Below, one piece after another: positions 9,578 through 27,658 of a stretch of DNA of 64,000 nt. The notes beneath the pieces were generated by a model, which searched no databases, was not told the origin of the DNA, and saw only the letters and a program-made list of their open reading frames with translations. A program made the translations under genes and the position numbers. Within the stretch, counting starts at the first letter, position 1. Each line of letters opens with the position of its first letter. Source of the DNA: Hyphomicrobiales bacterium (lineage in GTDB: Bacteria; Pseudomonadota; Alphaproteobacteria; Rhizobiales; Rhizobiaceae). The stretch spans positions 126,388 to 190,387 of the forward strand of contig UCJH01000020.1 of assembly GCA_900472785.1 (NCBI GenBank), written 5' to 3'.

Positions 9578-12500
9578 TTATTTGGTCTTGCGCGCGCGCG
9601 GGAATGCCGTTTCGAAGGCCTGGTCGAGCCGCCGGGCAAAGCGTTGGTGGAAAGGCGTCTTGCCGATAATCGTCAAATGGTTTGTGCCCGTGACGATTTC
9701 GGAAGCCGTGGCGTTGGGCGAGTAGCGGCGCCAGTCGATGACGTTCAGCGAGCGGGTCAACGAATCCTCGGCGGCAAAGGCATGAATGCGGAAGTCGGCG
9801 GGCTTCAGCTGATAGTTCCGGAAAATCATCGCATTATCGATCAGGATCCAGAATGTGTGTTCCTCTGAGCCGATATCCGGGCCGTCCGATGGCAGAACGA
9901 CATTGTGCTTGACGATGTGATTGAGGAACTGCTCGTAGACCTCCTCGTCCATCGCTGCGAACAGTCTCATCCAATCCGCCCGCATCGGCGCTGTCGCCAG
10001 CCAGCGCTGAACCTTTTCGTGGGTTTTATCGCGGACGCCATCGTTGAAACGCGGCAGAATGCCGAGGGTGAATTCCTCGTCCATGTCGCAGACGTCCACC
10101 ATGCCGATCATTCGGAGATCGATGTCATCTCCGAGCTGGCGAGCGGCTTCGTAGGCAAGCAGGCCGCCCCAGGACCAGCCGAGAAACGCGCATGGACGGC
10201 CCTTGGCCTGTTTTCGAACGGCTTCCGCATAGCGCGCCGTGATGTCCTCGACACGGGTGCTGAGCGCCTTGGATTCCGTCAGGGAATAGCAGATGAAGCC
10301 AGTGGCCGGCTGCTCCGGACCAAGGTAGTCGACGAGCCGCATATATTCGCGCGTACTGACCAGAAGACCAGGGAAGCAGTAAAGAAGAGGCCGGTCGCCG
10401 CCCCGGCGCAGGTAGACCATATCGACACCGGCCTCGTCGCGCGTCCCTTCGATGGCAATCGCAAGATCCCGGATGGTCGGATAGTTGAACATGTCGGCAA
10501 TCGTCAAAGGCCAATCCGGATGGCGGGTCTTCAGACGAGAAACGATACGGACGGCGGCCAGCGATTGACCGCCGACATCGAAGAAGTTCTCCGTGACGCC
10601 TATTTCCGGAGTGTCGAGAATATCCTTCCAGACGTCGAGGATCACTCTTTCCTTTTCGCTTGCAGGGGCAACCAGATCTCTTGCCGTCCTCGGGGCAGGA
10701 AGTGCGCTTCGGTCCAGCTTGCTGTTCGGTCCCATCGGTAGCCGGTCCAGCAGCATGATTGTTTGCGGTACCATATAGTCCGGCAAAGCGGCCATCGCTG
10801 CCCGCCGGAGGTCTGTCGTGCTGAGCCTTTCCCCCTCGCGGGCCACGACATAGGCGATCAGTGCGCTACGCCCACCCTCCTGATGCAGCAGCACTACGAC
10901 CTCGGCGACGCTCGGGCTGGATCTTAGAACCGCCTCGATTTCGCCGGGCTCGATGCGATAACCGCGCAATTTGATCTGGTGATCCACTCGTCCGGCAAAC
11001 TCGACGATCCCGTCCTCCCGCCAGCGGCCAAGATCGCCCGACCTGTAGAGCCGCCCACCGCTCGTCGAGAATGGATCAGGCACGAAACGTTCCTCGGTAA
11101 GTTCCGGTTGACCGAGATAACCCCGGGCAATTCCACCGCCACCAATATAGATTTCCCCGATCACGCCGACCGGAACGGGTGCAAGATCTGCGTCCAGCAC
11201 ATAGATGCGCCTGTCGCCGACGCCCCGGCCAATTGGAGCGACTGCGCCCTCGAAACGCGTGCCTGCAGGTATCTTCCAGATCATCGGGGTCATGATCGTT
11301 TCGGTCGGCCCATAGCCGTTGATCAGCATCTGCGCCTGCAGATTTTCGGTGATCATGTCGAACACCGCCTGCGACAGCGCCTCTCCGCCGAAAGAATAGA
11401 GCCGCAGCCGCGGTATCTCGCCGTTCTCACCGGCATATTCGGCAAGCCCACGCACATAGCTGGTCGGAAGGCTGGCATTGTTGACGCCGTGTCGGCGCAT
11501 CATCGCAAAGGCATCTTCCGGGGTCGCCAGCTTGTCCTGCGTCAGCACCACGCCCCCGCCGGCCATCAGCGGTACTATCCAGCGTTCGTGTCCGCCGTCG
11601 GAAGTAAAGGGCAGCACCGGATATTCGCAGGATGCCTCGCTCATTTCGTAGATGCGCAGGGTCGCCTTGCAATGATGGGCAAGCGGTCCGTGTTCGACGG
11701 CCACACCCTTGGGTATCCCTGTCGATCCGGACGTATAGATCACATAGGCAAGTTGCCGCTCCGCGATGCGCACCATGGGCGCCTCCACGCTTTCCAAGGA
11801 AAGATCGATTGCGTCGAGATTGAGCATCGGCGCCGCGATATCCGCCGGCAGATTGGCAATCGACCGCATGCGTGAAATGATCAGCGACAGGCCGGCTGCG
11901 CTGAGAATATGGCGGTTGCGCGTTTCCGGATGATCCGGTTCGACAGGCGTGAAGGCGCCGCCCGCCTTGAGCACGGCGAGAATGGCGACGATCGCGTCGA
12001 TCGACTTGTCGAGGGCGATTGCGACGCGTTTTTCGGGCCCTATGCCCATGGCGACCAGACGATGGGCCAGTCGGTTGGCGGCTGCTTCCAGTTCGCCATG
12101 CGTTATGGATTTTTCCCCCTGCGCAACAGCGAAGGCATCCGGCCGGCGTCTGGCCTGCGCCGCGATTACCTCGTGGACCGGCAAGCCGTCGTCGGCTTCC
12201 GGCTGATCGGGATAAGGCGCCGAAAGCCTGTCCAGTTCCTCCCGCGAAACAAACGGGATGCCTCTGATCAATTGACCCGGTTGGCTGCGGAGAACTTCAA
12301 GCGCGGTTGCCAGATCGTTTGCAAAGCGGGCGATATGCGCCAGTTCGTATTTCTGCGGATCGAAACCGAACCGCATCTTTGCGCGGTCGCGGGAGGTCCT
12401 GGAAATGGTGATGACGAGCTCGGCATCGCGGCGTGCAGGCGGTTCTGCGAGAGTGCGAACCGCCGCTTCATGCGCTTCAGCTTCGAAATGGTAGGCCGGG

Positions 12501-13579
12501 CGGATGTCGAGAAGAGTCTTGACGAGGCTTGTCGTATCGAAAAGTTCGTCGCGCTGCAGCAGGGCATCGGCCAATCCCTCGAAAGGCAGGGCTTGCATGG
12601 CGGCAGTCGCCAAGCCGTCGGAAAGCGCCTCGCGTGCCTGTCGGAGCGTCATCGCACCGTCGATCTCAGCGGTCGCGACCAGAATGTCTTCCGTGCGGGC
12701 CGTCGCTACGGTTTTCTCCGGCCTCGTGACAAAACCTATTCTTTGCGTTCCGTGGCCCGAATAACGACGCAGCGCCACGGCGAGAGCCGCGAGGATGTCG
12801 GCGGAGAGTTCCGCCTTGTTGTTGCCGGCATAGGTCAGCGCCGGCGTTTCGATCACGTGTTCGCACCAGGCGGCGTCTTGCAATTCCTTTGCAGCGGATG
12901 CCTGAGGCGTGAGCGCTGCGATGTTTTCCTGTGCCGTCAGCCGACGGAACCAGAAGTCCACCCGCTCCGCCGAAGGGCGGCAGGGGGCTGCGTTGTCGAT
13001 CATCCATGCGGTGGAATCGGGACGCGCGCTTTCCGCGAAGCCGGTCCCGAAGGCAGAGGAATGGCCAATATTCCGAATGAAGTCGGTTGCGATCCGGTCG
13101 AGCGCCACGCTATCGCCGATGACGGCATGAAGGGAAAACAAAACGCCGACAGCCTGTTGCCACTGATTGACCAAAAGCACGAAACGCGCCGGATGCCCGG
13201 CTTGCAGATCGATCGGCCTCAGTCGTTCCGCCTCGATTGCGGCAGGCAGTGCCTCTTCGAGGCCTTCGCCATCCGGCAAACTGCTTTCGATGATCTCGAT
13301 GCGACGATCATCACCCAGGCTCTGATAGACGGTGCCGCCGGGACGCGCCTCGAATTTGCGGGTAATCAGAGGATGACGCTCCGACAGGGCGGCAAGTGCC
13401 TTGTTTGCTGTCGATACCGCCACCGCGGCAAATCCGATCCCCAGGGTCTGCCGTCCGAAAACCGCTTCGTTGCCAGTTTCGGAGAGAAGCCAAATTCGCG
13501 ATTGCGCCGAAGACAGCGGGCACGTCGCGACTTGATCCGAGCCATCATCTGCCTTGGTATTCCTATCGTGAATTGTCAT
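9578..13579 (-). CDS. Single-module NRPS (C-A-T-TE) for a hydroxamate siderophore
   Basis: A 1333-residue cytosolic NRPS. Domains: condensation about 20-440; adenylation about 465-955 with YTSGSTGIPKG (615-625), GYGPTE (755-760), YRSGDL (845-850), RVDHQIKLRGYRIEPGE (864-880) and NSKLDR (952-957); thiolation with the phosphopantetheine serine in GGQSL (1003-1007); thioesterase with nucleophile motif GWSWGG (1134-1139). The condensation motif, normally HHxxxDG, reads LHAVIGD at 150-156: the catalytic second histidine is kept but the Asp/Gly order is altered. Lining residues read by eye against PheA give roughly D-G-E-S-Y-F-G-M-T, not one I can assign. One module plus TE suggests iterative oligomerisation and cyclisation, as for vicibactin's VbsS. 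It starts at ATG 13579 and is followed by the N-hydroxylase. Confidence 0.93.
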   Translation of the reverse strand: MTIHDRNTKADDGSDQVATCPLSSAQSRIWLLSETGNEAVFGRQTLGIGFAAVAVSTANKALAALSERHPLITRKFEARPGGTVYQSLGDDRRIEIIESSLPDGEGLEEALPAAIEAERLRPIDLQAGHPARFVLLVNQWQQAVGVLFSLHAVIGDSVALDRIATDFIRNIGHSSAFGTGFAESARPDSTAWMIDNAAPCRPSAERVDFWFRRLTAQENIAALTPQASAAKELQDAAWCEHVIETPALTYAGNNKAELSADILAALAVALRRYSGHGTQRIGFVTRPEKTVATARTEDILVATAEIDGAMTLRQAREALSDGLATAAMQALPFEGLADALLQRDELFDTTSLVKTLLDIRPAYHFEAEAHEAAVRTLAEPPARRDAELVITISRTSRDRAKMRFGFDPQKYELAHIARFANDLATALEVLRSQPGQLIRGIPFVSREELDRLSAPYPDQPEADDGLPVHEVIAAQARRRPDAFAVAQGEKSITHGELEAAANRLAHRLVAMGIGPEKRVAIALDKSIDAIVAILAVLKAGGAFTPVEPDHPETRNRHILSAAGLSLIISRMRSIANLPADIAAPMLNLDAIDLSLESVEAPMVRIAERQLAYVIYTSGSTGIPKGVAVEHGPLAHHCKATLRIYEMSEASCEYPVLPFTSDGGHERWIVPLMAGGGVVLTQDKLATPEDAFAMMRRHGVNNASLPTSYVRGLAEYAGENGEIPRLRLYSFGGEALSQAVFDMITENLQAQMLINGYGPTETIMTPMIWKIPAGTRFEGAVAPIGRGVGDRRIYVLDADLAPVPVGVIGEIYIGGGGIARGYLGQPELTEERFVPDPFSTSGGRLYRSGDLGRWREDGIVEFAGRVDHQIKLRGYRIEPGEIEAVLRSSPSVAEVVVLLHQEGGRSALIAYVVAREGERLSTTDLRRAAMAALPDYMVPQTIMLLDRLPMGPNSKLDRSALPAPRTARDLVAPASEKERVILDVWKDILDTPEIGVTENFFDVGGQSLAAVRIVSRLKTRHPDWPLTIADMFNYPTIRDLAIAIEGTRDEAGVDMVYLRRGGDRPLLYCFPGLLVSTREYMRLVDYLGPEQPATGFICYSLTESKALSTRVEDITARYAEAVRKQAKGRPCAFLGWSWGGLLAYEAARQLGDDIDLRMIGMVDVCDMDEEFTLGILPRFNDGVRDKTHEKVQRWLATAPMRADWMRLFAAMDEEVYEQFLNHIVKHNVVLPSDGPDIGSEEHTFWILIDNAMIFRNYQLKPADFRIHAFAAEDSLTRSLNVIDWRRYSPNATASEIVTGTNHLTIIGKTPFHQRFARRLDQAFETAFPRARKTK

Positions 13580-13899: not shown

Positions 13900-15048
13900 A
13901 TGGATGCTTCTGGTGCGGCCTTGTGTGGAACCGCGGTGGCTCGATCGTTTGATCAGCGCCTGCCTCTTGAAGGATTTGCGAGCCACGCACTTGCGCTCGG
14001 ACTGCCTGTCGTTGTTGTGCCGGTGCCGGGCGGCTTTCGGGCCAAATATCTTGGCACCGATGTCGCTTCGGGACGGTTTTCGGCCTCGACTCGGCCACTG
14101 CTGGCCTTCGACCAGATATCGGCCGGTAACGGAGAGTTATTGCCAGAAGATGTCGTCAATGCCGTGCTGGATGCCGTGCTGACCTGTCATCCGGAGCTGA
14201 ATGGCGTCGATATCGCTCTTGAGGATGGTGCCCTTCTGGCGCGCTTGTTGGCATCAGGTGCCGTCGAGCAGCGTGAGGATCGCGTTGTCGCGCGTCCGCA
14301 GGCCTTTTTCCAGCAGGCAAAGCCCTGGCTTGGCAATACGCCTTGCGTCTATCCGGACACGCCGGTTCTGACGAACGGCGTTCTCCATCCCCTGCGGGCA
14401 CCAAAATCTGCCGGCACGGTCTATAACCGGTACATTCCCTGGCTGGACATGCCGATCGGCTTTCATGTCGCCGATATCGATGAGGATCTGCCCCATTTCC
14501 ATCGCTGGATGAACGACCCGCGCGTCTCGGCCATCTGGGAGGATGACGGCAACCTGTCCTATCATCGTGATTTCATTGCAGGCCGGCTCGCTGATCCGCG
14601 GACTTTGCCGCTGATCGGAACATTCGGCGGCGTGCCCTTCGGCTATTTCGAGCTTTACTGGGCCAAGGAGGATCGCATCGGCCCGCATTATGAGGCAGAA
14701 GGACACGACCGCGGCTGGCACGTCGCCATTGGCGAAGACGCCTTTCGCGGAAAGCCGTTCGTGAGTGCCTGGCTGCCGTCGCTGATGCACTATATGTTTC
14801 TGGCCGACCCGCGCACTCGGCGTATCGTCGGCGAACCGGTCCATCATCACCGTCAACAGATCCGCAATCTGGACAGGTCGGGCTTCTCGAAGATCAAGCA
14901 TATCCAGTTTCCTCACAAGACTGCATTGCTGGTGATGCTCTTGCGCGAGCGGTTCTTCATGGACCGGTTGCTCTCGCCCGATCTCTCTGGCCTTTCGGGG
15001 AAAGACGGCTTACCGGTTCGCGGCTCCTTGCCTCGTGACGCCGCGTGA
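13900..15048 (+). CDS. IucB/VbsA-like hydroxylamine acyltransferase
   Basis: A 382-residue acyltransferase expected to acylate the N-hydroxylated side-chain amine of lysine or ornithine from acyl-CoA, forming the hydroxamate iron ligand. The C-terminal GNAT-like domain (about 190-350) has the family text FHVADIDEDLPHFHRWMNDPR, SAIWEDDGN, YFELYWAKEDRIGPHY and DRGWHVAIGEDAFRG, typical of IucB, RhbD and VbsA. The N-terminal 170 residues form the extra domain these siderophore enzymes share. The ATG at 13900 has GGAG 8 nt upstream and follows the ECF-type promoter. Its stop codon overlaps the next start (TGATG). The acyl group cannot be read from sequence. Confidence 0.88.
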   Translation: MDASGAALCGTAVARSFDQRLPLEGFASHALALGLPVVVVPVPGGFRAKYLGTDVASGRFSASTRPLLAFDQISAGNGELLPEDVVNAVLDAVLTCHPELNGVDIALEDGALLARLLASGAVEQREDRVVARPQAFFQQAKPWLGNTPCVYPDTPVLTNGVLHPLRAPKSAGTVYNRYIPWLDMPIGFHVADIDEDLPHFHRWMNDPRVSAIWEDDGNLSYHRDFIAGRLADPRTLPLIGTFGGVPFGYFELYWAKEDRIGPHYEAEGHDRGWHVAIGEDAFRGKPFVSAWLPSLMHYMFLADPRTRRIVGEPVHHHRQQIRNLDRSGFSKIKHIQFPHKTALLVMLLRERFFMDRLLSPDLSGLSGKDGLPVRGSLPRDAA

Positions 15049-16415
15049 TGACGACAGCGGTGGATATGAACGACCCGCGCGTCGCGCGGCTCGTTCTGAG
15101 GGTCGCCCTGCCGGCGGTGGCCGGATTGGCGGCGAGTGCCGGCCATCATGCAATCAACGCGGTTTTCATCGGTGCCCTTGGACCGGATGTACTTGCAGGA
15201 ATCAGCCTCGTCATGCCGCTGTTCCTGCTCGTCGCAGCCATGGGACAGGGGCTTGGTATCGGACTTGCAACCCTTCTTGCGCGCCATCTTGGCAAGGGCG
15301 ACGTCACCGCGGCCTCGTCGGTCGCGGCAACCGCATTGGCCGTGACAATCCCGATCGGTGCCATCCTGTCGGTCCTGATCTACCTTGGATTGCCCGGTTT
15401 CGTCGGGGCGCTCGGTGCAAGCGACGCCCTTCTGGCACCTGGCCTCGTCTACGGACGATTGCTGGCCTTTGTCGTGACACTCGGACTGCTCCAGGCGGTC
15501 TGCGATTTCATTGCGATTGCCGAGGGAAATTCACGCTTTTCGATGATCGTGCTGATTGCCAGTTTCGCGCTCAATGCCGTTCTTGATCCCGTCCTGATCT
15601 TCCTGTTTGAATTTCGGGAAGCGGGCGCAGCTTTCGCCACCATCCTTTCGTCCGTGGCGGCACTTCTCTGCTATGCCGCTTATTTCTGGCGCAGATTGGG
15701 CAAGGTCAGGGTATCGGTGCGGCTTGTCCGGTGGCAATTGCTGCGACCGATCGCAAGGATCGGGATCCCTGCCGCGGCAACAAGCGTCGTTACCGGCCTG
15801 GGGTTCCTCGTTCTTCTGCGCGAGGCAGCCGTTCACGGCGGCGATGACGGGGTGGCTGCGACGGCGATCGCCATCCGCCTGATCACGCTGGGCCAGCTTC
15901 CCATCTTCGGCTTTTGCCTCGGGGCACAAAGCGTTGTCAGCCATGCTGTCGGGGCCGGCGACCTCTTGCGTTTAAGGGCTGCTATCAGCGTCATGCTGGC
16001 TGTGACGGTCCCGATCGCATCGCTTTATTCCATCCTGCTGTTTCTGGGAGCGGAACCGATTGCGCGCCTGTTCACAGATAGTCCGACCGTCGCAGCCGAA
16101 GCGGCAGCATTTTTGCGGGCGCTTTTCCCGGTCTTCCCCTTGGCGGCGTTCCAGTCTGTCCTGCTCGTGATGCTCCAGTCGCGTGGTCGGGCCGCGCTCT
16201 CCGCCGTCGTCGGCCTTGCGCCGCAAGGCTATGTGTTCATCCCCTTGCTGCTTTTGCTGCCATCCTGGATGGGCTTTACCGGCGTCATTCTTGCTCCGGC
16301 CGGCGCTGCGATCCTCGCAGCCGTGCTCGGTCTCATCATCGCCCAGCGTGAATGGCTGGCCGTCTTACCAACAAACACCGGCCATCTGGTCGGCCAGTCG
16401 TCACTCCATCCCTAA
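15048..16415 (+). CDS. MATE-family exporter, probable siderophore efflux pump
   Basis: A 455-residue inner-membrane protein with about 12 hydrophobic segments in two similar halves, the MATE arrangement. Recognisable parts are LPAVAGLAASAGHHAINAVFIGALG at the start and GFCLGAQSVVSHAVGAGD in the second half, matching the conserved MATE loop after TM7. It starts at an ATG overlapping the acyltransferase TGA by one base, so it is coexpressed with siderophore assembly. The likely job is proton- or sodium-driven export of the finished siderophore from the cytosol. It could instead export toxic intermediates. No other exporter is present in the cluster. Confidence 0.88.
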   Translation: MTTAVDMNDPRVARLVLRVALPAVAGLAASAGHHAINAVFIGALGPDVLAGISLVMPLFLLVAAMGQGLGIGLATLLARHLGKGDVTAASSVAATALAVTIPIGAILSVLIYLGLPGFVGALGASDALLAPGLVYGRLLAFVVTLGLLQAVCDFIAIAEGNSRFSMIVLIASFALNAVLDPVLIFLFEFREAGAAFATILSSVAALLCYAAYFWRRLGKVRVSVRLVRWQLLRPIARIGIPAAATSVVTGLGFLVLLREAAVHGGDDGVAATAIAIRLITLGQLPIFGFCLGAQSVVSHAVGAGDLLRLRAAISVMLAVTVPIASLYSILLFLGAEPIARLFTDSPTVAAEAAAFLRALFPVFPLAAFQSVLLVMLQSRGRAALSAVVGLAPQGYVFIPLLLLLPSWMGFTGVILAPAGAAILAAVLGLIIAQREWLAVLPTNTGHLVGQSSLHP

Positions 16416-19143: not shown

Positions 19144-20139
19144 TCAGATGCTTGCCAATTTTACACTCTGACCGGATTTGGCCGAACGTGTTGCGGCCTC
19201 GGCGACGGCAAGCGCGTTGACGCCGTCATCAAGCGTGACAGGCAGCGGCGAGCCTGCGTTGACCGCGGTCACAAACGCATGCCATTCCGCAGAATAGGCG
19301 CGCATATACCGCTCCAGAAAAAAGAACTCCGGCTTTGCGGAGGCAACCCCATCCTTCGTCGCCTTGGAGACGGTGTTCTCAAGGACATTGCCGGCCGACA
19401 ACAGTCCCTCCGAGCCGAGCAGCTCGACGCGCTGGTCGTAGCCATAGACAGCGCGACGGCTGTTCTTGATGACGGCGATGCGACCGTCGGCAAAATGCAG
19501 CGTCACCACCGCGGTATCGACATCGCCGGCGGCGCCGATGTCCGGATCAACAATCGAGCTTCCAACGGCCGTCACCGTTTCGGGGAAGCCGCCCATCAGC
19601 CAGCAGGCCATATCGAAATCATGGATCATCATGTCGCGGAACAGGCCGCCCGATACCTTGACGTAGGAAACCGGCGGTGGCGCGGGATCGAATGAGGTCA
19701 CCGACAGCAATTCGGTCTTTCCGATCTCGCCGCGATCGACGGCCGCCTTCAGAGCTGCAAAATTGGGGTCGAAGCGACGGTTGAAACCGATCATCACCGG
19801 GCGCCCGTTTTTCGCTGCGGCTTTCTGGCAGGCGCGTGCCCGCTCCAGGCTGAGATCAACCGGCTTTTCGCAGAGAACCGCCTTGCCGGCTGCAGTCGCC
19901 GCCTCGATCAGGTCGGAATGCGTATCCGTGGAGGTCGCCACGAGCACGGCGTCGATCGACGGGTCATTGATGATATCGTCCGTTGACCTCGCCTCCGCGC
20001 CGTACTGCTCGGCGAGCTTCCGCGCCGCATCCATATTGACGTCCGAGATGGCAACGAGAGTGCTGCCAGGGTGAGAAGAGATTGCCCTGGCGTGCACATT
20101 GCCGATGCGGCCGGCGCCAAGGAGGCCAATTTTGAGCAT
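19144..20139 (-). CDS. mocA: Gfo/Idh/MocA dehydrogenase (inositol 2-dehydrogenase / MocA-like)
   Basis: A 331-residue NAD(P)-dependent oxidoreductase. The Rossmann motif is IGLLGAGRIGNVHARAI, the catalytic lysine sits in LCEKPVDL, and the C-terminal half has the HDFDMACWLMGG histidine/aspartate motif. The family includes myo-inositol dehydrogenase (IolG/Idh) and MocA, which oxidises the inositol ring in rhizopine breakdown. The ATG at 20139 fits the family start; a second ATG five codons earlier is less likely. It is the last gene of the leftward moc-like operon, which supports oxidation of a scyllo-inosamine or inositol-type intermediate. An iolG label would be equally defensible. Confidence 0.85.
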   Translation of the reverse strand: MLKIGLLGAGRIGNVHARAISSHPGSTLVAISDVNMDAARKLAEQYGAEARSTDDIINDPSIDAVLVATSTDTHSDLIEAATAAGKAVLCEKPVDLSLERARACQKAAAKNGRPVMIGFNRRFDPNFAALKAAVDRGEIGKTELLSVTSFDPAPPPVSYVKVSGGLFRDMMIHDFDMACWLMGGFPETVTAVGSSIVDPDIGAAGDVDTAVVTLHFADGRIAVIKNSRRAVYGYDQRVELLGSEGLLSAGNVLENTVSKATKDGVASAKPEFFFLERYMRAYSAEWHAFVTAVNAGSPLPVTLDDGVNALAVAEAATRSAKSGQSVKLASI

Positions 20140-20199
20140 GTCTATTCCTTTCATCGAGCGGTCGAAGGCCGCCTTTTCTTCAGTCGTGGTGGGTGGATG

Positions 20200-21012
20200 T
20201 CAGGCGCCGATGCCCGCTGCAAAACGCTCGAACTCGGCGTCCGCTATCGGCACGGCATGCTGCCGGGCCGGATAGGCGCCCGTCTCCACATCCGAGATGA
20301 ACTCCTTGAAGGCGGCCACTCTCTCCTGCTGGAGTCGCGCATATTCGGCGGCAAAGTTGCGATAGGTCTTTGCGTGCCGCGGCTTGTGACCGCTCGTATG
20401 GCCGAGAACGTCCTCGGCGAAGAGGTATTGTGCATCGGCCCCGGCCCCGGCGCCCATGCCGAGCATGATCAGCGACGTGTTCCGGGATATGACCTCACCC
20501 ACACGATCCGGAACGACCTCCAGTTCCGCACCGAAGCAGCCGATCGCTTCCAGTCGCTTGACGTGGTCCCACACGGCCTTCGCGCTGTCTGCTGTCTTGC
20601 CGACCGCCTTGAAGCCGCCGGTCCAGGTGGCCTGCGACGGGATCAGTCCCACATGGGCGACCACCGGAACGGCGTTGTCGCAAAGCGCTTTCTGGATATC
20701 GAGCGAGGCGGCGCAATAAATGCAGTCCGCGCCGACCGCCATAAAGCGGAAAGCTTCGCGCAAATAGTCTTCGGCGGTTGCGAGCGTGCCGAAAGGTCCG
20801 AACGGCAGCCCGACCTGCACGAAGCAGTTTCCGGCAGCGTCGCGCATTTCGGGGCTGAAGAAACGCCCCTCGATCGACAACATGTCGATGCCCGCTGCGT
20901 TGGCTGCGGCTGCCTCTTCCAGTGTCGTGACATAGAGCATGGAAATCTTCTGGCCCCGCGCCTTCATGGCACGGATGTCGGCGACCGTCGGACGGGTGTG
21001 ATAGAGGCCCAT
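20200..21012 (-). CDS. PanB (ketopantoate hydroxymethyltransferase) homologue with altered active site
   Basis: A 270-residue TIM-barrel protein aligned by eye over its whole length with E. coli PanB. Matching pieces include AHVGLIPSQ...GGFKAVGKT, LEVVP, and SGHKPRHAKTYRNF. However the metal-ligand position D45 (VGDS) reads IEGR, D84 (ADLPF) reads VGLPF, and K112/E114 (VKIEGG) read IYCAAS; only the catalytic-base position E181 (LEVVP) is kept. True ketopantoate synthesis is therefore unlikely. The start is ATG 21012; the open frame continues upstream but without family similarity. It is the next-to-last gene of a moc-like operon that should release formaldehyde by O-demethylation, which makes a one-carbon or ring-opening role worth testing. 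Confidence 0.8.
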   Translation of the reverse strand: MGLYHTRPTVADIRAMKARGQKISMLYVTTLEEAAAANAAGIDMLSIEGRFFSPEMRDAAGNCFVQVGLPFGPFGTLATAEDYLREAFRFMAVGADCIYCAASLDIQKALCDNAVPVVAHVGLIPSQATWTGGFKAVGKTADSAKAVWDHVKRLEAIGCFGAELEVVPDRVGEVISRNTSLIMLGMGAGAGADAQYLFAEDVLGHTSGHKPRHAKTYRNFAAEYARLQQERVAAFKEFISDVETGAYPARQHAVPIADAEFERFAAGIGA

Positions 21013-21023
21013 TGGCTTCCCTT

Positions 21024-21809
21024 TCAAACTGTGAATGCGTTGCGGAACGCTTCGAGCGCGGCGTCCGCATCGCCGGAGGCGAAGGCTTCCATGCCGACCG
21101 GGCCGGAATAGCCCATGGCTTTCAGTGCTTTTGCGATGCCGGTCCAGTTCACTTCTCCGGTTCCGGGTTCGAATCTCCCCGGAACATCGGCAACCTGAAT
21201 TTCGCCGATCCACGGAAGGGATTTGCGGCAAAGCTCGATCAGGTTCCCCTCGCCGATCTGCGCATGATAGAGATCGAGATTGAGCCGCAGGCGCGGATGG
21301 TTCACGCTCGAAACGAGCGCGAGGGTATCCTCGGCGCGGCCGAAGGGCACGCCGGGATGATCGACCGGCAGGTTCAAATTCTCAAGCGTAAAGGTCACGC
21401 CCTCCTCTTCCGCGAGGTCCACAATTCGGTAGAGGGTGTCACGCGCTTTCAACCACATCGCACCCGTCACGACGTCGATCGGCTGGACCGGTAGACCACC
21501 CTCCCCCAGACCGGTTCCGTGCAGGTTCAGCCGTTGCACGCCGAGGCGCTTGCCGACCTGAGCCGTTTCACGCGCTGTCTTCAGAAGTTCTGAAGCGCCC
21601 TCGTCGTCGGTCAGGCGGCCGCGCAGATAACCATTCATGATGGTGAAGGTGGCGCCTGTCGCTTCCAGCTTGGACAGATCGTGCTCCGGCCAATTCCAGA
21701 GCCCGACACCAAAGCCTAAGTCTTTCAGCCGGCTGGCTCGCCACTCTATCGGGCGATCGCGCCACAGCATTTCAGCGCAGGCGGCAAGGGCAAAATGTTC
21801 TGTTGTCAT
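21024..21809 (-). CDS. mocC: Xylose-isomerase-like TIM-barrel protein, MocC/hydroxypyruvate-isomerase type
   Basis: A 261-residue TIM barrel of the AP-endonuclease-2/xylose isomerase family. Recognisable pieces are FALAACAEMLWRD at the start, NLHGTG, the metal-ligand glutamate in FTLENLNLPVDHPG, LNLDLYHAQIGEG (Asp/His) and IGEIQVADVPGR, closing with a GMEAF glutamate. This pattern matches hydroxypyruvate isomerase (Hyi) and the MocC/IolE/IolH group that acts on inositol-derived ketones. The start is ATG 21809, 3 bp after the Rieske gene. In the moc context isomerisation or dehydration of an oxidised inosamine is likely; the exact substrate is inference. Confidence 0.82.
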   Translation of the reverse strand: MTTEHFALAACAEMLWRDRPIEWRASRLKDLGFGVGLWNWPEHDLSKLEATGATFTIMNGYLRGRLTDDEGASELLKTARETAQVGKRLGVQRLNLHGTGLGEGGLPVQPIDVVTGAMWLKARDTLYRIVDLAEEEGVTFTLENLNLPVDHPGVPFGRAEDTLALVSSVNHPRLRLNLDLYHAQIGEGNLIELCRKSLPWIGEIQVADVPGRFEPGTGEVNWTGIAKALKAMGYSGPVGMEAFASGDADAALEAFRNAFTV

Positions 21810-21812
21810 GGT

Positions 21813-22124
21813 TCAAATCTCGATGAATACGCGGTCATTTTCGACCTTGGCTGCATAAGTCTTCAGGTTGATGCAAACGGGCATCCGCATTGCCTCGCCC
21901 GTCCGGTAATCGAAGACGCCGCTGTGTTTCGGGCATTCGATCGAATGGTCCATGACCAGGCCATCGGCGAGATGAACCTTCTCGTGCGTGCAGAGACCAT
22001 CCGTGCAGTAGAAGTCGTCCTCCGGACTCCGAAAAATGCAGAATGTTCGGCCCTGATGGTCGAACCGAAGGACTTCTTCCTGTTCCACGTCGTCGGTTGC
22101 GCAGGCTTCCACCCATTGGGGCAT
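21813..22124 (-). CDS. mocE: Rieske [2Fe-2S] ferredoxin, MocE-like
   Basis: A 103-residue soluble ferredoxin that delivers electrons to an oxygenase. The cluster ligands are visible as CTH...CPKH (C-x-H, 16 residues, C-x2-H) around residues 44-65. Its length is that of BphF/NdoA-type Rieske ferredoxins. The ATG at 22124 is chosen because the Rieske fold begins there; sequence further upstream is a hairpin region. In R. leguminosarum MocE works with MocD (hydroxylase) and MocF (reductase) to demethylate the rhizopine 3-O-methyl-scyllo-inosamine. A MocD-like gene is upstream in the same operon, but no MocF-like reductase is in this window. Confidence 0.88.
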   Translation of the reverse strand: MPQWVEACATDDVEQEEVLRFDHQGRTFCIFRSPEDDFYCTDGLCTHEKVHLADGLVMDHSIECPKHSGVFDYRTGEAMRMPVCINLKTYAAKVENDRVFIEI

Positions 22125-22191: not shown

Positions 22192-22285
22192 GCGGCAGAA
22201 GTCCGCACGTGGAGGTGCACGGACCGGGAGAACATACGGACCATAACGCTGCGGGCTGGTCACCTGCGCAGTGTCCGATACTGCG

Positions 22286-23110
22286 TCAATGCGCGTGGAT
22301 CGCCGGATCAGGGTGACCGTCGCCTGCAGCCATGTGGTTTTCGATGCCGGCTTCCAGTTCGACCATCTGCTCGCCGCCCGCCATCAGATCGGTGATTTGT
22401 TCGCGGGTCTTTTCGCCCTTGCGGAAATCGGCCGCGATGGCACCGCGGATCAGCACGGCAAAGTGATCGCCGACGGCCATGGCGTGCATGACTTGGTGGG
22501 TGATGAAAATCACCCCGAGGCCCCGCCGCCGGGCTTCGTTGACGATGCGCAGGACATGCGCTGCCTGTTTGACCCCCAAGGCTGCGGTGGGTTCGTCGAG
22601 GATCAGGACGCGGGCGCCGAAATGGACAGCGCGTGCGATGGCCAGAGCCTGCCGTTCGCCGCCTGACAGACCGCCGACCAGTCGGTCGCCGTCGTCAATG
22701 CGGGTGATGCCGAACGACTGCACCGCTTTGACGGCGGTATCGTTGGCCAGCTTGCGGTCATAGATTTTAAAAGGCCCGACCCACTTCGTCGGCTCTCGTC
22801 CGACGAAGAACGATCTCCCGACGGACATCAGCGGAAAGGTTCCGCCGAACTGGTGGACCGTTGCGATGCCGTGGTCGGCGGCCTCGCGCGGATTGGCAAA
22901 GACCACTGGCTTGCCGTCCATCGCCATCACGCCCGAGGTGGGTTTGTGTACCCCGGAAAGCAGCCGGATCACCGTGGACTTGCCGGCACCGTTGTCGCCC
23001 AGCAGACAGAGCACTTCCCCGGCCCGCACGTCGAGATTGATGTCGTGCAGCACATCGATCGGACCAAAGCTTTTGTTGATGTTCTTCAGCGAAAGGATTG
23101 CCTGTGACAT
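22286..23110 (-). CDS. Sugar/polyol ABC importer, ATP-binding subunit (single ATPase domain)
   Basis: A 274-residue cytosolic ATPase with Walker A GDNGAGKST, signature LSGGERQALAIARA, and Walker B VLILDEPT followed by FITHQ. Unlike the two-domain RbsA type used elsewhere in this window, it holds only one ATPase domain and so must dimerise, as FrcA and similar rhizobial sugar importers do. It overlaps the permease gene by one base. The ending is a histidine-rich tail (GDGHPDPAIHAH). The substrate is inferred from the moc-like neighbours to be a rhizopine or inositol-like compound. Confidence 0.9.
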   Translation of the reverse strand: MSQAILSLKNINKSFGPIDVLHDINLDVRAGEVLCLLGDNGAGKSTVIRLLSGVHKPTSGVMAMDGKPVVFANPREAADHGIATVHQFGGTFPLMSVGRSFFVGREPTKWVGPFKIYDRKLANDTAVKAVQSFGITRIDDGDRLVGGLSGGERQALAIARAVHFGARVLILDEPTAALGVKQAAHVLRIVNEARRRGLGVIFITHQVMHAMAVGDHFAVLIRGAIAADFRKGEKTREQITDLMAGGEQMVELEAGIENHMAAGDGHPDPAIHAH

Positions 23111-24120
23111 TATTTGCCCCCCGTCTTCCTGGGCGCATAGGACAGCGCCATCTTGCGGAACGTGTTGTTCATCAAGACAGCGACGAGCAACAGGATGCCG
23201 ATGATCAGCGACGACCAGTTGCGGTCGAAATCGGTGTAGTAGATGCCTTGGTTGACGATCGCGAAGGTGATGGTCCCGAAGAAGATTCCGACGATCGACC
23301 CGAAGCCGCCGGTCAGCAGGACGCCGCCGACCACGACCGAGATGATGGCGTTGAAGATAAAGCTTTGCCCACCTGCGACCTGCGCCGAGTTATAGAGGAT
23401 CGCCTGACAGAGGCCGACAAAGGCAGCCGAGGTTGAGGACAGCACAAACAGCAGGATTGTCATCCGCTCGGTTGGGATACCGGCATTGCGTGCCGAAACC
23501 TTGTCTCCGCCCATCGCGAAAATCCAGTTTCCGAAGCGCGAAAAGTGAACGAAGAAGATATAGGCGGCGGTAATGGCAAGCCACCACAGAACCATCACCT
23601 GAACCTGACCGTTGAAGAGGAAATCGCCGAAGATTGTCTTGGCCACGCCCTCGGTGACCAGCGCGACACTCGTGGATTTAGTGATGAGAACCGTGAGGCC
23701 AAGGACGATGCCCTGTACGGCAAAAAGCGTGCCCAGCGTGACGATCAAGGACGGTACGGCGGTGCGGATCACCATATAGCCGTTGATCAGGCCGATCAGC
23801 ACACCGAAAGTCAGGGCGACCGCGATGCCGAACCAGATCGGCAGGTCATAGTGACCGGAGACGACGGCAACCGTCATCGCACCAAACGGCACCATCGCAC
23901 CCACCGAAATGTCCAGCTCTCCGGCGATCATCAGCAGGCCGACGGGAATGGCGATCACACCAAGGTTCGATGCCACGTTCATCCAGCTGGCCATGCCCGC
24001 GGGTTGCAGAAAGGTCAGGCCGCCAAAGATTCCGAAGAAGATCAGCACGGCCAAGAGACCAAGAAAGGCGCCAGCCTCTGGGCGGCGCAGCAGGGCGCCT
24101 GGTGAAAAGCTACTTTGCAT
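23110..24120 (-). CDS. Sugar/polyol ABC importer, permease subunit
   Basis: A 336-residue inner-membrane permease of the RbsC/FrcC family with about eight to ten hydrophobic segments. Typical text includes GELDISVGAMVPFGAM, SLIVTLGTLFAVQGI and the late VGGVLLTGGFGSIVGIFFG loop that contacts the ATPase. The ATG at 24120 is chosen because it follows a strong GGGGAGAGGG ribosome site; the open frame continues upstream without hydrophobic character. It works with the ATPase downstream and the binding protein upstream. Confidence 0.9.
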   Translation of the reverse strand: MQSSFSPGALLRRPEAGAFLGLLAVLIFFGIFGGLTFLQPAGMASWMNVASNLGVIAIPVGLLMIAGELDISVGAMVPFGAMTVAVVSGHYDLPIWFGIAVALTFGVLIGLINGYMVIRTAVPSLIVTLGTLFAVQGIVLGLTVLITKSTSVALVTEGVAKTIFGDFLFNGQVQVMVLWWLAITAAYIFFVHFSRFGNWIFAMGGDKVSARNAGIPTERMTILLFVLSSTSAAFVGLCQAILYNSAQVAGGQSFIFNAIISVVVGGVLLTGGFGSIVGIFFGTITFAIVNQGIYYTDFDRNWSSLIIGILLLVAVLMNNTFRKMALSYAPRKTGGK

Positions 24121-24226: not shown

Positions 24227-25198
24227 TCAGCGAGCGCCTTTTTCGACACCGGCCAGAGTGGCATCGATATTGACGGTGTCGACGATGCCCGGGCCGGTCA
24301 GCACCGGATAGGTCGGCAGTGAAGTGCCGAAGTCGATGGCCGCGGCCAGCAGGCTGACCGCCAGATAGCTTTGCAGGTAGGGTTGCTGGTCGATCGCGAA
24401 GGTCTGGGTGCCGCCCTTGATGCGTGCCAGGCCTGCTGCGTTCATATCGAACGAGCCCAGTGACACCGTCGCAATGCCCGACTGCTGGATGCCGGTCGCC
24501 GCTGCATCCGCGTCGCCGGCCGAGATCGTGATGACGCCGTCGATCGTGGTGTCCTTCAACAGCGTCGCCTTGATGGCTTCTGCCACGGCGGTCGGGTCGC
24601 CGAAGCTGGTCGTGGGCAGGGGCAGTTGCTCGGCAGCGCCGCCGCCGGCAACCATGCCGTCGGTCACGCCCTTACAGCGCGCTTCGGTGTTGTTGGCGCC
24701 CGGCAGAGTGTTCACGCACAGCACATGCTTCTTGCCGTGGCTGGCGAAATAAGCGCCGCCAGCCTGGCCGGCAACATATTCATCAGAACCGACATAATTG
24801 ATCGCGCCCAATTCGCGGGCCTTGTCGGCGCCGCCGGCGTTCATCAGGATGACCTTGATGCCGGCCGCAATCGCGTCCTTGATCGCCGGGTCTTCGGCTT
24901 CGGGCACCCAGTTCGGGATGACCAGGCCGTCAACCTTCTGGCTGATCGCGGTACGGATCAATTGCACCACGTCCGGCGCGAAGTTGTCGTAGTTCTGAAG
25001 CCGCAGATAGTTGACCGAACCGCCATTGGCGACAACGGCCGGGGTGGCGTCGTCAATGCCCTTCTTGATCAGGTTCCAGAAAGCGTCATCGTTCGAGCCG
25101 CCTACGACGGCAATGGTTGCCGCAGTTGCCGGCGATGCGGCCGATGCCATCAGCGCCACAACGGCCGCAGCCCTCATCAGGTTCTTTATGAGTCTCAC
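24227..25198 (-). CDS. mocB: Periplasmic sugar-binding protein, MocB-like
   Basis: A 323-residue periplasmic binding protein of the ribose/galactose type (PBP1 fold). A Sec signal peptide covers about residues 1-27 (RAAAVVALMASAASPATA, cleaved after the Ala-rich end). The mature part opens with IAVVGGSNDDAFWNLIKKG and has the cluster-B features VDGLVIPNWVP, HVLCVNTLPGANNTEARCKG and VSLGSFDMN. The start is a GTG at 25198 behind a perfect GGAGGAGAA ribosome site, better than an internal ATG at 25177. MocB of S. meliloti is the rhizopine-binding protein; the name here rests on operon context. Confidence 0.85.
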   Translation of the reverse strand: MRLIKNLMRAAAVVALMASAASPATAATIAVVGGSNDDAFWNLIKKGIDDATPAVVANGGSVNYLRLQNYDNFAPDVVQLIRTAISQKVDGLVIPNWVPEAEDPAIKDAIAAGIKVILMNAGGADKARELGAINYVGSDEYVAGQAGGAYFASHGKKHVLCVNTLPGANNTEARCKGVTDGMVAGGGAAEQLPLPTTSFGDPTAVAEAIKATLLKDTTIDGVITISAGDADAAATGIQQSGIATVSLGSFDMNAAGLARIKGGTQTFAIDQQPYLQSYLAVSLLAAAIDFGTSLPTYPVLTGPGIVDTVNIDATLAGVEKGAR

Positions 25199-25326: not shown

Positions 25327-26349
25327 TCAGGTGGTGGTGCCGCTCGCCTTGGCGTTCAGCCGCGCCTTTTTTTCCTGGAACCGCGCCTGCATCTGGGCGT
25401 CGCCTTCCTTGGTGCCGTCGTGCCAGGTGCCGAACCACTTATCGAGCGGGACCAGCCCGTCGCCGCCGTAGTTCACCTCGAAATACTTGTGGTGCAGGTA
25501 ATGCGCATAGGCGTGGCTATCGACGGCGGTTTCCTCGGTGACTTCGAGCTTTTCGAAGCCGATATGGCCGTTGACCGCGCCAAAGCCGGCAATGTGCAAC
25601 TGAAAGAGCGCGACGATCGGATTGGACGGGATGACAAGGTGCCACAACGCCACGGCGTGGTAGAGAAAGCCTTCCACAGGATGCATGGACAGCGACGACC
25701 ACGGAGACGGATTGACCGAATTGTGGTGCACGGAATGAATCCACTTATAGAGCAGCGGCGTGTGGATCAGTCTGTGGATCAGGAAGAAATGCACCTCGTG
25801 GATGACCGGCGCGATAAGCACGAGCAGCGCCAGATAATAGGGATGTTCGTCCCAATTGACCCATGAGGCAGAGCCGTTTGCAAAGCTCCAGAGCATCAGC
25901 ACTTCGACGACGGTCCACAGCGGGATCGAGATGAAGAAGCTGCGCATGAAGTTGTCGATGTTCTGGCTCTTGAACCAGAAGACATCCGACGGTTGCTCGG
26001 ATGGGAACTTTGCATTGTATTTGAAGCGGTTTCCCTGAACGCGCTTCACGTAATAGAAAAGCTCGATCGAGCCGTACATGACGAAGATCGCGGCCGCGTT
26101 CACCGCATAGAGATAGAGCGGCCAGCCCCAGCTCAATGTCTTCATCGTCTCGACATCCGGAACGACGAGGTACCAATAGGCGAGTGCGGTTGCCATGTGG
26201 AAGGCATTCCACGGAAAGAGGTATTCCGGCAGCCAATGCAGGACTTTCAGGAATTTCGGGGGCCAGGCCCAGAACGGTGCAACTTCTATGCGGCCGCTAG
26301 GCGCCCAGTCGCCGCGCTTGTTTCGTGTGCCAAACTTCAGATCGTCCAT
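25327..26349 (-). CDS. mocD: Membrane di-iron hydroxylase (sterol-desaturase/fatty-acid-hydroxylase superfamily), MocD-like
   Basis: A 340-residue integral membrane oxygenase. The iron-binding histidine boxes are HRLIHTP, HSVHHNS, and HAYAHYLHHKYFE, spread over about residues 180-285, with hydrophobic segments before them (about 45-65, 75-95, 125-150, 165-185). In R. leguminosarum MocD with MocE and MocF removes the O-methyl group of 3-O-methyl-scyllo-inosamine. It is the promoter-proximal gene of this operon. The ATG at 26349 is preceded by GAGGA; a TTG six bases upstream is less likely. Without the context it would be called a generic fatty-acid hydroxylase. Confidence 0.82.
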   Translation of the reverse strand: MDDLKFGTRNKRGDWAPSGRIEVAPFWAWPPKFLKVLHWLPEYLFPWNAFHMATALAYWYLVVPDVETMKTLSWGWPLYLYAVNAAAIFVMYGSIELFYYVKRVQGNRFKYNAKFPSEQPSDVFWFKSQNIDNFMRSFFISIPLWTVVEVLMLWSFANGSASWVNWDEHPYYLALLVLIAPVIHEVHFFLIHRLIHTPLLYKWIHSVHHNSVNPSPWSSLSMHPVEGFLYHAVALWHLVIPSNPIVALFQLHIAGFGAVNGHIGFEKLEVTEETAVDSHAYAHYLHHKYFEVNYGGDGLVPLDKWFGTWHDGTKEGDAQMQARFQEKKARLNAKASGTTT

Positions 26350-26564
26350 GTTCAATCCTCATGTGAGCAGTGCGTTGCTCGACGGCCGCTTTGATGTCAG
26401 GAGCTATTCAACAGGCACACACAGTCCTTCGGCCCATCGGGCCGTTTTGCCGTCTGCGGTAAAGTTGCTGCTACTTCCCTGAACGCGCGGGCTTGCCGGC
26501 ACCGTTTGTCTGGGCCAAGTAAAGGACTTGACGTCTTCCAACGCAAGTGATCTTGATCTTAATA

Positions 26565-26587: not shown

Positions 26588-26629
26588 ATGAAGACGAAAA
26601 ATTGATATGAAATGAAACGTGGGGCGATG

Positions 26630-27658
26630 ATGACGCGGCCAACAATACAGGATCTTGCTGATGCGGCGGGCGTATCGATAGCCACGGCAAACCGGGTGAT
26701 CGGCGGGCGGGCAAACGTTCGGCAATCCACGATGCAGCGGGTGAAGGACGCAGCGCAAGACATCGGCTTTTACGGTCTCGGTACGATCGACAGCCGGATC
26801 GCTGCCGCCAAACCGAAGCATCGGTTCGGCTTTGTCCTGCATCAGCCGTCCCGGCAATTCTACCTGAACCTTGCCCAGGCCCTGCAAGCCGCCGCTGCGC
26901 GAACCCCTGACTGCATCATTGATATTCGTATCGAGTTTCTGGAGGATTTGTCGCCTCAAAATACCGCCGCAAGAATGCTTGCCTTAGCCGAGACCTGCGA
27001 TGCGATCGGTGTCGTCGCCGCCGTCCATCCCATCGTCAACCAGGCAGTGGAAGCGCTGCAACTTCAAGGCAAGCCGGTCTTTGCACTGATTTCCCAGATC
27101 GCGCCGACCGGACAAGTCCATTTCGTCGGGCTCGACGGTTGGAAAGTCGGGCGCACGGCTGCCTGGATGTTCGAGCATGTCTGCAAGCAGCCAGGCAAGC
27201 TCGGAGTTCTTATGGGAAACCCTCGATATCGATGCCAGGAGATGAACGAGAGTGGGTTTCGATCCTACTTTCGGGAATACGCCTCGGATTTCACCATTCT
27301 GGAGCCGCGCTCAACGTTTGAATCCAAGGCCGTCGCCGAAGAAATGACGGAGAATCTGTTGCGCGAGCATCCGGACCTGCAGGGCCTGTATGTGGCCGGC
27401 GGGGGCATTTCCGGCGCTCTGGCGGCGTTGAGAACGACAGGCAATGCCGGGACAGTCATGCTTGTCGGTTACGAGCTCATGGATGTGACGCGAGAAGCGC
27501 TTCTTGATGGCACCATGACATTCGTCATTTCTCATCCGCTCGCCCGCCTCGCCGAAGAGGCTTTGTCGGGCATGGTTCGCGCATTGAAAGTGAAAGGCGG
27601 TGACGGCAATTTTACAAGCGTTCTTCCCTTCGAGATTTATACGCGTGAAAATATCTGA
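26630..27658 (+). CDS. LacI-family transcriptional regulator of the moc-like operon
   Basis: A 342-residue repressor. The N-terminal helix-turn-helix and hinge are PTIQDLADAAGVSIATANRVIGG (about residues 4-26), followed by a periplasmic-binding-protein-like effector domain (AKPKHRFGFVLHQPSRQFYLNLAQAL onward). It is divergent from mocD with a palindrome between them. The start may be ATG 26627, 26630 or 26612; 26630 has GGGG at the best spacing. The natural effector is probably the operon's substrate or an early intermediate. Rhizopine operons of S. meliloti use a GntR/MocR regulator instead, so this is a different control design. Confidence 0.88.
   Translation: MTRPTIQDLADAAGVSIATANRVIGGRANVRQSTMQRVKDAAQDIGFYGLGTIDSRIAAAKPKHRFGFVLHQPSRQFYLNLAQALQAAAARTPDCIIDIRIEFLEDLSPQNTAARMLALAETCDAIGVVAAVHPIVNQAVEALQLQGKPVFALISQIAPTGQVHFVGLDGWKVGRTAAWMFEHVCKQPGKLGVLMGNPRYRCQEMNESGFRSYFREYASDFTILEPRSTFESKAVAEEMTENLLREHPDLQGLYVAGGGISGALAALRTTGNAGTVMLVGYELMDVTREALLDGTMTFVISHPLARLAEEALSGMVRALKVKGGDGNFTSVLPFEIYTRENI

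Follow-up and report, generated by a model that had tools for sequence, protein, structure and literature searches.

The window analysed here, a stretch of 64,000 nucleotides, contains a run of eight minus-strand genes in the order oxygenase, binding protein, permease, ATPase, MocE ferredoxin, MocC-like protein, PanBL and MocA/IolG-like dehydrogenase, with spacing that ranges from overlaps to about 160 bp and with a divergent LacI-family regulator (26612-27658, plus strand). Families were assigned by Pfam and NCBIfam, both of which underlie the calls for the regulator, the ATPase and the MocC-like protein. The first gene (25327-26355) encodes a membrane oxygenase that matches the FA_hydroxylase/sterol-desaturase family PF04116 only and not the desaturase type PF00487; we take it to be a di-iron enzyme from its membership of this Pfam family, and it is the putative O-demethylase of the operon. 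It is followed by a periplasmic binding protein that resembles rhizopine-binding proteins but scores below cut-off (24227-25198; 160.1 bits against 420), an ABC transporter permease (23110-24114; Pfam) whose mechanical ORF reaches 24264, a sugar-type ABC transporter ATPase (22286-23110), a MocE-family Rieske ferredoxin (21813-22124; 174.4 bits, cut-off 136.15) whose likely ATG at 22124 lies within a longer mechanical ORF ending at 22244, and a TIM-barrel isomerase/epimerase family protein (21024-21809) for which MocC-like is a working label. The seventh gene (20200-21012) encodes PanBL, which has the PanB fold but lacks the metal/ketoacid site of PanB, and the eighth (19144-20154) a dehydrogenase of the inositol 2-dehydrogenase family (436.5 bits, cut-off 355). 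No reductase gene is present among the genes of the operon.

An earlier note had described this as a rhizopine-type operon with MocD/MocE-like proteins, a description that is borne out in part. The ferredoxin and the inositol 2-dehydrogenase both exceed their cut-offs, whereas the score of the binding protein and the regulator, which is LacI rather than MocR-like, lead us to reject a strict rhizopine assignment. Likewise the MocE half of the comparison stands, whereas MocD is counted by one paper among fatty-acid-desaturase-like proteins (PMC2593844) and the oxygenase of the window belongs to PF04116, so that the two may differ in family. Compared with MocDEF of Sinorhizobium meliloti L5-30, the operon shares a MocE-family ferredoxin with a membrane oxygenase and an inositol-like catabolic setting, and differs in its LacI regulator, in PanBL, in lacking a reductase gene and perhaps in the family of its oxygenase. 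An O-methylated inositol or sugar as the substrate would fit the LacI regulator, the ABC transporter and the inositol-type dehydrogenase.

The PanBL reading frame is intact and encodes 270 amino acids. Its score with the Pfam family Pantoate_transf is 142.9 bits (cut-off 28.7), which places it within the PanB family profile, and the Pfam scan returned no other family; its score with the panB equivalog TIGR00222, at 97.5, is below the cut-off of 207.55. The AlphaFold2 model (pLDDT 85.2, pTM 0.86) is predicted to have the PanB fold, as the first 28 PDB matches found by Foldseek are all PanB chains (1m3u, 3vav, 3ez4; E 8e-19, TM about 0.77 to the 3vav chains). Residue numbers and catalytic roles of E. 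coli PanB follow the earlier note and general background on the enzyme. In PanB, E181 is the base that deprotonates the ketoacid, and the aldol chemistry depends on the metal/ketoacid site. At the positions D45, S46, D84, K112, E114, H136 and E181 the window protein reads G-R-G-Y-A-H-E: the D45 column holds G49, D84 has become G68, K112 Y99 and E114 A101, whereas H136 and E181 are retained as H120 and E165.

These changes characterize the whole subfamily. When 84 PanBL sequences, the window protein among them, are aligned with 31 true alphaproteobacterial PanB proteins, D84 is replaced by glycine and K112 by tyrosine in all 84 rows, E114 is likewise replaced, about 20 residues that follow D45 are deleted, and H136 and E181 are unchanged throughout. 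Positions near what was the active site are strongly conserved, with G68, Y99, T129 and T131 in 84/84 rows and W130 in 82/84. An alignment of 191 rows that adds distant relatives comprises 51 PanB rows (from 31 distinct genes, as 20 genes appear twice) reading D-[S/T]-D-K-E-H-E, eight rows reading D-S-C/S-K-Q-H-E (the DSxKQ class), 125 rows of a class with G and Y at D84 and K112 (G-Y), and seven distant others; thus G-Y is found in 125 of the 132 rows outside the PanB and DSxKQ classes, and the H136 and E181 positions are invariant in 191/191. Of the 125 G-Y rows, 112 have an acidic residue at most one residue from the D45 column (E48 in the window protein), so that a shifted ligand is possible at the D45 site alone; the E114 position is acidic in none of the 125. 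The family alignment and structure model for which the earlier note had called therefore uphold its claims that metal and substrate residues are lost (D84, K112 and E114 replaced, and the D45 column glycine, albeit with the adjoining acid) and that the fold markers and E181 are kept. PanBL resembles PanB in its fold, in the second half of its sequence and at the H136 and E181 positions, and differs from it in the replaced residues, the deletion and the sub-cut-off equivalog score. The ratio dN/dS of the window gene is 0.04-0.06 (NG86, against three close orthologues), which rules out a decaying pseudogene, and a chance or frameshifted ORF is ruled out by the intact frame and by the 331 stretches elsewhere that encode relatives. 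PanBL is thus a conserved PanB-fold subfamily.

A search of the genome of the window (5.4 Mb) finds three PanB-family genes, namely a normal panB beside panC (contig C35), the window gene, and a paralogue (C50) that is 57% identical to the window protein and adjoins a reductase, a MocE ferredoxin and an FA-desaturase-type oxygenase. A relative has been studied in Rhizobium etli CFN42, in which plasmid p42e carries RHE_PE00443, a second putative panB with 5 of 12 invariable active-site residues and with no metal-binding domain detected; the R. etli panB mutant is a pantothenate auxotroph, and constitutive expression of RHE_PE00443 failed to complement it (PMC3082293). A search of the whole p42e record, which does not carry the old locus tag, found one PanB-family gene, a PanBL, and we therefore equate it with RHE_PE00443. 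It is 55% identical to the window protein, has identical site changes and is annotated within a run of desaturase, MocE, reductase and PanBL; the R. etli operon differs from that of the window in its FA-desaturase-type oxygenase, in its reductase and in nadABC downstream, and MocA and MocC, kinds of gene that are both present in the window, are not annotated there. Residue losses, a separate panCB and the failed complementation of the relative (PMC3082293) together support the proposal of the earlier note that the window PanBL should not form ketopantoate, and for one member of the subfamily, that of R. etli, this conclusion is already published. On the residues, the equivalog cut-off and the complementation result we reject a PanB function for PanBL (PMC3082293). 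In the literature searched, no paper was recognised that addresses what PanBL does. The label 3-methyl-2-oxobutanoate hydroxymethyltransferase on PanBL genes can mislead pathway reconstruction; in one genome (G070) the sole PanB-family match found is a PanBL.

The gene neighbourhood was surveyed in several samples. From the 331 stretches found in named genomes the best 80 loci, which lean to close relatives, were kept, and 63 of these are flanked by 4 kb or more on each side, the other 17 being dropped by this flank rule. An oxygenase of FA-hydroxylase or FA-desaturase type lies within 8.5 kb of PanBL in 62 of the 63 well-flanked loci among the best 80; the same 63 contain a MocE in 56 cases, a binding protein in 57, MocC in 49, MocA in 44, a reductase in 11, purU in 9 and folD in 7, by profile thresholds that were chosen after the data had been seen, and the gene caller missed two loci in the clustering of neighbours. 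At 20 loci of true panB genes, drawn from a survey of the class, none of the nine genes counted, oxygenase included, reaches threshold (0/20), a control that informs on panB genes and not on matched genomes, since the 20 genomes were not picked for MocE. The operon-context survey that the earlier note had suggested thus finds the oxygenase and MocE to be the constant partners, whereas MocA, MocC and transporters vary.

A wider survey covered 397 genomes of the order, in which 38 genomes carry 61 copies of PanBL (at least 160 bits) and 57 genomes carry 86 copies of MocE over cut-off. The two occur together in 32 of the 397 genomes (Fisher p 1e-25, a value that overstates independence because the genomes are related). 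A MocE gene lies within 5 kb of 42 of the 61 PanBL copies, and 44 of the 86 MocE copies have no PanBL within that distance; such oxygenase-MocE pairs without PanBL, together with the rhizopine moc genes, described without a panB in the excerpt of PMC10107442, where panB is not mentioned, indicate that PanBL is not obligatory. Neighbours were counted in 56 loci of the order (48 of the 61 PanBL copies and eight DSxKQ relatives), and an oxygenase is found by the profiles used in 42, comprising 39 of 41 G-Y loci, three of seven others and none of the eight DSxKQ loci. MocA and MocC are found in 8 and 4 of the 56 (thresholds 300 and 200 bits), with weaker dehydrogenase relatives in others.

The 66 G-Y rows of an 88-row tree group together in a single supported clade (96/84). 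An oxygenase or MocE lies within 6 kb in 62 of the 66, and an oxygenase within 10 kb in 61, of FA-hydroxylase type in 29 and of FA-desaturase type in 32. On a tree of these 61 rows, which omits the five without an oxygenase within 10 kb, the oxygenase class switches five times, and at least four of the switches are forced by well-supported branches; the label changes counted on the 88-row tree (6 and 9) include, besides real changes, effects of truncated contigs and of distance limits. The annotated gene runs read desaturase, MocE, reductase and PanBL on S. meliloti pSymB as in R. etli, and desaturase, ferredoxin and PanBL followed by inositol genes in Aestuarium. As the oxygenase class alternates and the sugar genes and transporters vary, PanBL accompanies an oxygenase plus ferredoxin rather than any single oxygenase family, and the constancy of this pair points to the demethylation step. 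The constant partnership of PanBL with a membrane oxygenase and MocE is new here.

For the function of PanBL the earlier note had offered two proposals, a retro-aldol or C-C cleavage on a ring-opened inosamine and a one-carbon capture. The constancy of oxygenase and ferredoxin against variable sugar genes favours the second, which is the better of the two, being supported by the oxygenase in 62 of the 63 well-flanked loci of the best 80 and weakened by a purU/folD excess that is not significant. We propose, with somewhat less than even confidence, that PanBL works in concert with an oxidative demethylase as an enzyme of one-carbon capture and places formaldehyde-level carbon onto tetrahydrofolate. 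Electrons would pass from a reductase and the MocE ferredoxin to the membrane di-iron oxygenase, which would hydroxylate a methyl group of a sugar- or inositol-like substrate; the methyl carbon would depart at the formaldehyde level, as formaldehyde or as a hemiacetal, and PanBL would condense it with tetrahydrofolate to 5,10-methylene-tetrahydrofolate, which FolD and PurU, where present, would convert to formate. Of the PanB reaction, PanBL would thus retain the folate/hydroxymethyl half, to which the H136 and E181 positions belong, whereas the half that involves the metal and the 2-ketoacid would be gone. We infer three elements of this scheme, namely demethylation by the oxygenase, binding of tetrahydrofolate and formaldehyde by PanBL, and catalysis of their condensation. 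No folate-binding motif or site was identified in PanBL, and the role of E181 as ketoacid base counts against capture, in that a retained acid would favour carbon-acid chemistry.

The loading of formaldehyde onto tetrahydrofolate is only partly explained, since the spontaneous reaction is judged too slow for growth on C1 feedstocks (PMC7073904) and the role of DmmD, the partner of dimethylamine monooxygenase, in turning formaldehyde into methylene-tetrahydrofolate is proposed and not proven (PMC4543880). He et al. weighed PanB among two E. coli enzymes that possibly help formaldehyde to reach tetrahydrofolate, imagining a route via a ketoacid with ketopantoate as the carrier, and deletion of panB together with ltaE left growth unchanged (PMC7073904). 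As this route needs a ketoacid that PanBL should not bind, it is a lead and not a precedent (PMC7073904). The proposed role of PanBL matches that of DmmD, with oxygenase-derived formaldehyde converted to methylene-tetrahydrofolate and FolD and PurU downstream (PMC4543880). The formaldehyde-activating enzyme Fae offers a likeness of reaction type, formaldehyde plus a pterin carrier, and differs in that its carrier is tetrahydromethanopterin, against the tetrahydrofolate proposed for PanBL, and in that the Pfam scan of PanBL gives Pantoate_transf only. DmmD, in turn, is presumably a GcvT-family protein and so of another Pfam family than PanB. A more specific version of the capture reading, which we regard as possible and rather less than probable, is that PanBL is a dedicated tetrahydrofolate-dependent formaldehyde-activating enzyme with a PanB fold, the folate counterpart of Fae. 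It would have evolved by shedding the ketoacid site, and two families of membrane di-iron demethylases, with methylated sugars and inositols as their substrates, would share it. Conserved and tied to probable demethylases, PanBL is a concrete candidate for the loading step, and its genes lie in tractable rhizobia.

Genes for the downstream steps are present at a minority of loci. A purU, a folD or both lie near PanBL in 16 of 137 loci, most of them from related rhizobia, and neither was found by the searches used in the remaining 121 or in the operon of the window. The layouts are several: MocA-folD-purU in Mesorhizobium (L038, L066), MocA-reductase-purU/folD in Rhizobium and Ensifer (L051, L074), reductase-purU behind a regulator (L006), folD immediately 3' of PanBL in an Oceanospirillaceae MAG (L067), purU immediately 3' of PanBL (L143), and two looser cases (L008, L177). 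Two of the purU examples and one folD example pass curated models. The genome of the window has two purU and one folD over cut-off, and seven other PanBL carriers that were checked have up to five purU that likewise exceed it; from such copy numbers, chance proximity within about 17 kb is expected at near 1-2% per locus. Compared with MocE loci that have no PanBL (20 regions from 19 of 25 MocE-only genomes; 0/20), the excess at PanBL loci is not significant (p 0.23). A glutathione-type formaldehyde dehydrogenase shows the opposite distribution, in 4 of the 20 MocE loci without PanBL (L206, L208, L209, L213) against 0 of 137 PanBL loci (p 2e-4), where L208 passes the curated model and the other three are assigned by similarity; the FrmA proteins of L209 and L213 are alike and that of L206 is encoded on the opposite strand at a distance of about 5 kb, so that the independent cases number fewer than four. 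It is as if a locus carried either the glutathione formaldehyde route or PanBL. In Pseudomonas putida, O-demethylation of vanillate frees formaldehyde that is handled by a glutathione-type formaldehyde dehydrogenase (PMC10949508). On R. etli p42e, genes annotated as dmmA-family, aminomethyltransferase, folD and purU (L231 161-3791) lie about 27-30 kb from PanBL. GcvT-family genes are not general partners of PanBL, as a query with the R. etli aminomethyltransferase matched L173 only, a locus outside the PanBL clade in which a PanB relative (D-S-S-K-Q) has a VanA-type oxygenase on one side and a GcvT-family folate protein on the other.

The main alternative is that PanBL, without folate, serves the oxygenase as a partner that is non-catalytic or handles a hemiacetal, either by binding the hydroxylated product and aiding its breakdown or by stabilising the oxygenase-ferredoxin complex. 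It draws on the same constant oxygenase association, and it agrees with the finding that, of the PanB active-site residues tested, most are lost and with the lack of folate genes at most PanBL loci. Nevertheless, the invariance of H136 and E181 and the strong conservation at positions of the former site suggest catalysis by PanBL, about half of the MocE copies stand without a nearby PanBL, and this reading would leave the purU and folD genes near PanBL unexplained; we consider this alternative unlikely, though to be taken seriously. A synthetic role, in which PanBL passes a hydroxymethyl group from methylene-tetrahydrofolate, or formaldehyde, to an acceptor other than a 2-ketoacid, is improbable: the retained PanB fold with its two catalytic positions and the nearby folate genes of the 16 loci would suit it, but no constant acceptor-using gene was recognised among the clustered recurrent same-strand neighbours, and the LacI regulators and sugar transporters give the context a catabolic look.

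The first of the two earlier proposals, the retro-aldol or C-C cleavage of a ring-opened inosamine or inositol product, now appears quite doubtful. It draws on the inositol-type dehydrogenase and MocC-like genes in the window operon and on the retained fold and E181 position, but close relatives of MocA and MocC occur at only part of the loci (44 and 49 of the 63 well-flanked loci among the best 80, and 8 and 4 of the 56 in the wider survey), the R. etli and S. meliloti operons are annotated with desaturase, MocE, reductase and PanBL only, and the PanB metal/ketoacid site is lost; from locus to locus the sugar genes differ, and PanBL keeps its oxygenase and ferredoxin. That PanBL is a degraded or redundant ketopantoate hydroxymethyltransferase, the name under which named records label the matches, is hardly credible given the missing residues, a dN/dS of about 0.05, the separate panCB and, for the R. 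etli relative, refutation by the failed complementation (PMC3082293).

Several observations lie to the side of this argument. The DSxKQ class comprises eight PanB relatives (L167-L174) in which D84 is replaced by C or S and E114 by Q. The two members tested, L170 and L173, score 279 and 256 with the panB equivalog, above its cut-off of 207.55, so that annotation will name them PanB despite their changed metal-site residues. Pfam detects an FA_hydroxylase near the DSxKQ gene of L174 and the VanA-type oxygenase near that of L173, both missed by the oxygenase profiles. A PanBL that is 80% identical occurs in a Trueperaceae (Deinococcota) MAG (L018) and reflects either a binning error or transfer. 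On R. etli p42e the desaturase-type PanBL operon is followed by genes annotated as nadC, L-aspartate oxidase and nadA (L231 26354-29731), and nad-like genes, judged by eye, similarly follow the PanBL operon in L131, L132 and L144. Elsewhere in the window, a minus-strand ORF of 1333 amino acids (9578-13579) reads by eye like a nonribosomal peptide synthetase, and beside it lie a 382-amino-acid ORF and a transporter-like ORF (13900-16415), which by the same judgement may form a siderophore cluster with it.
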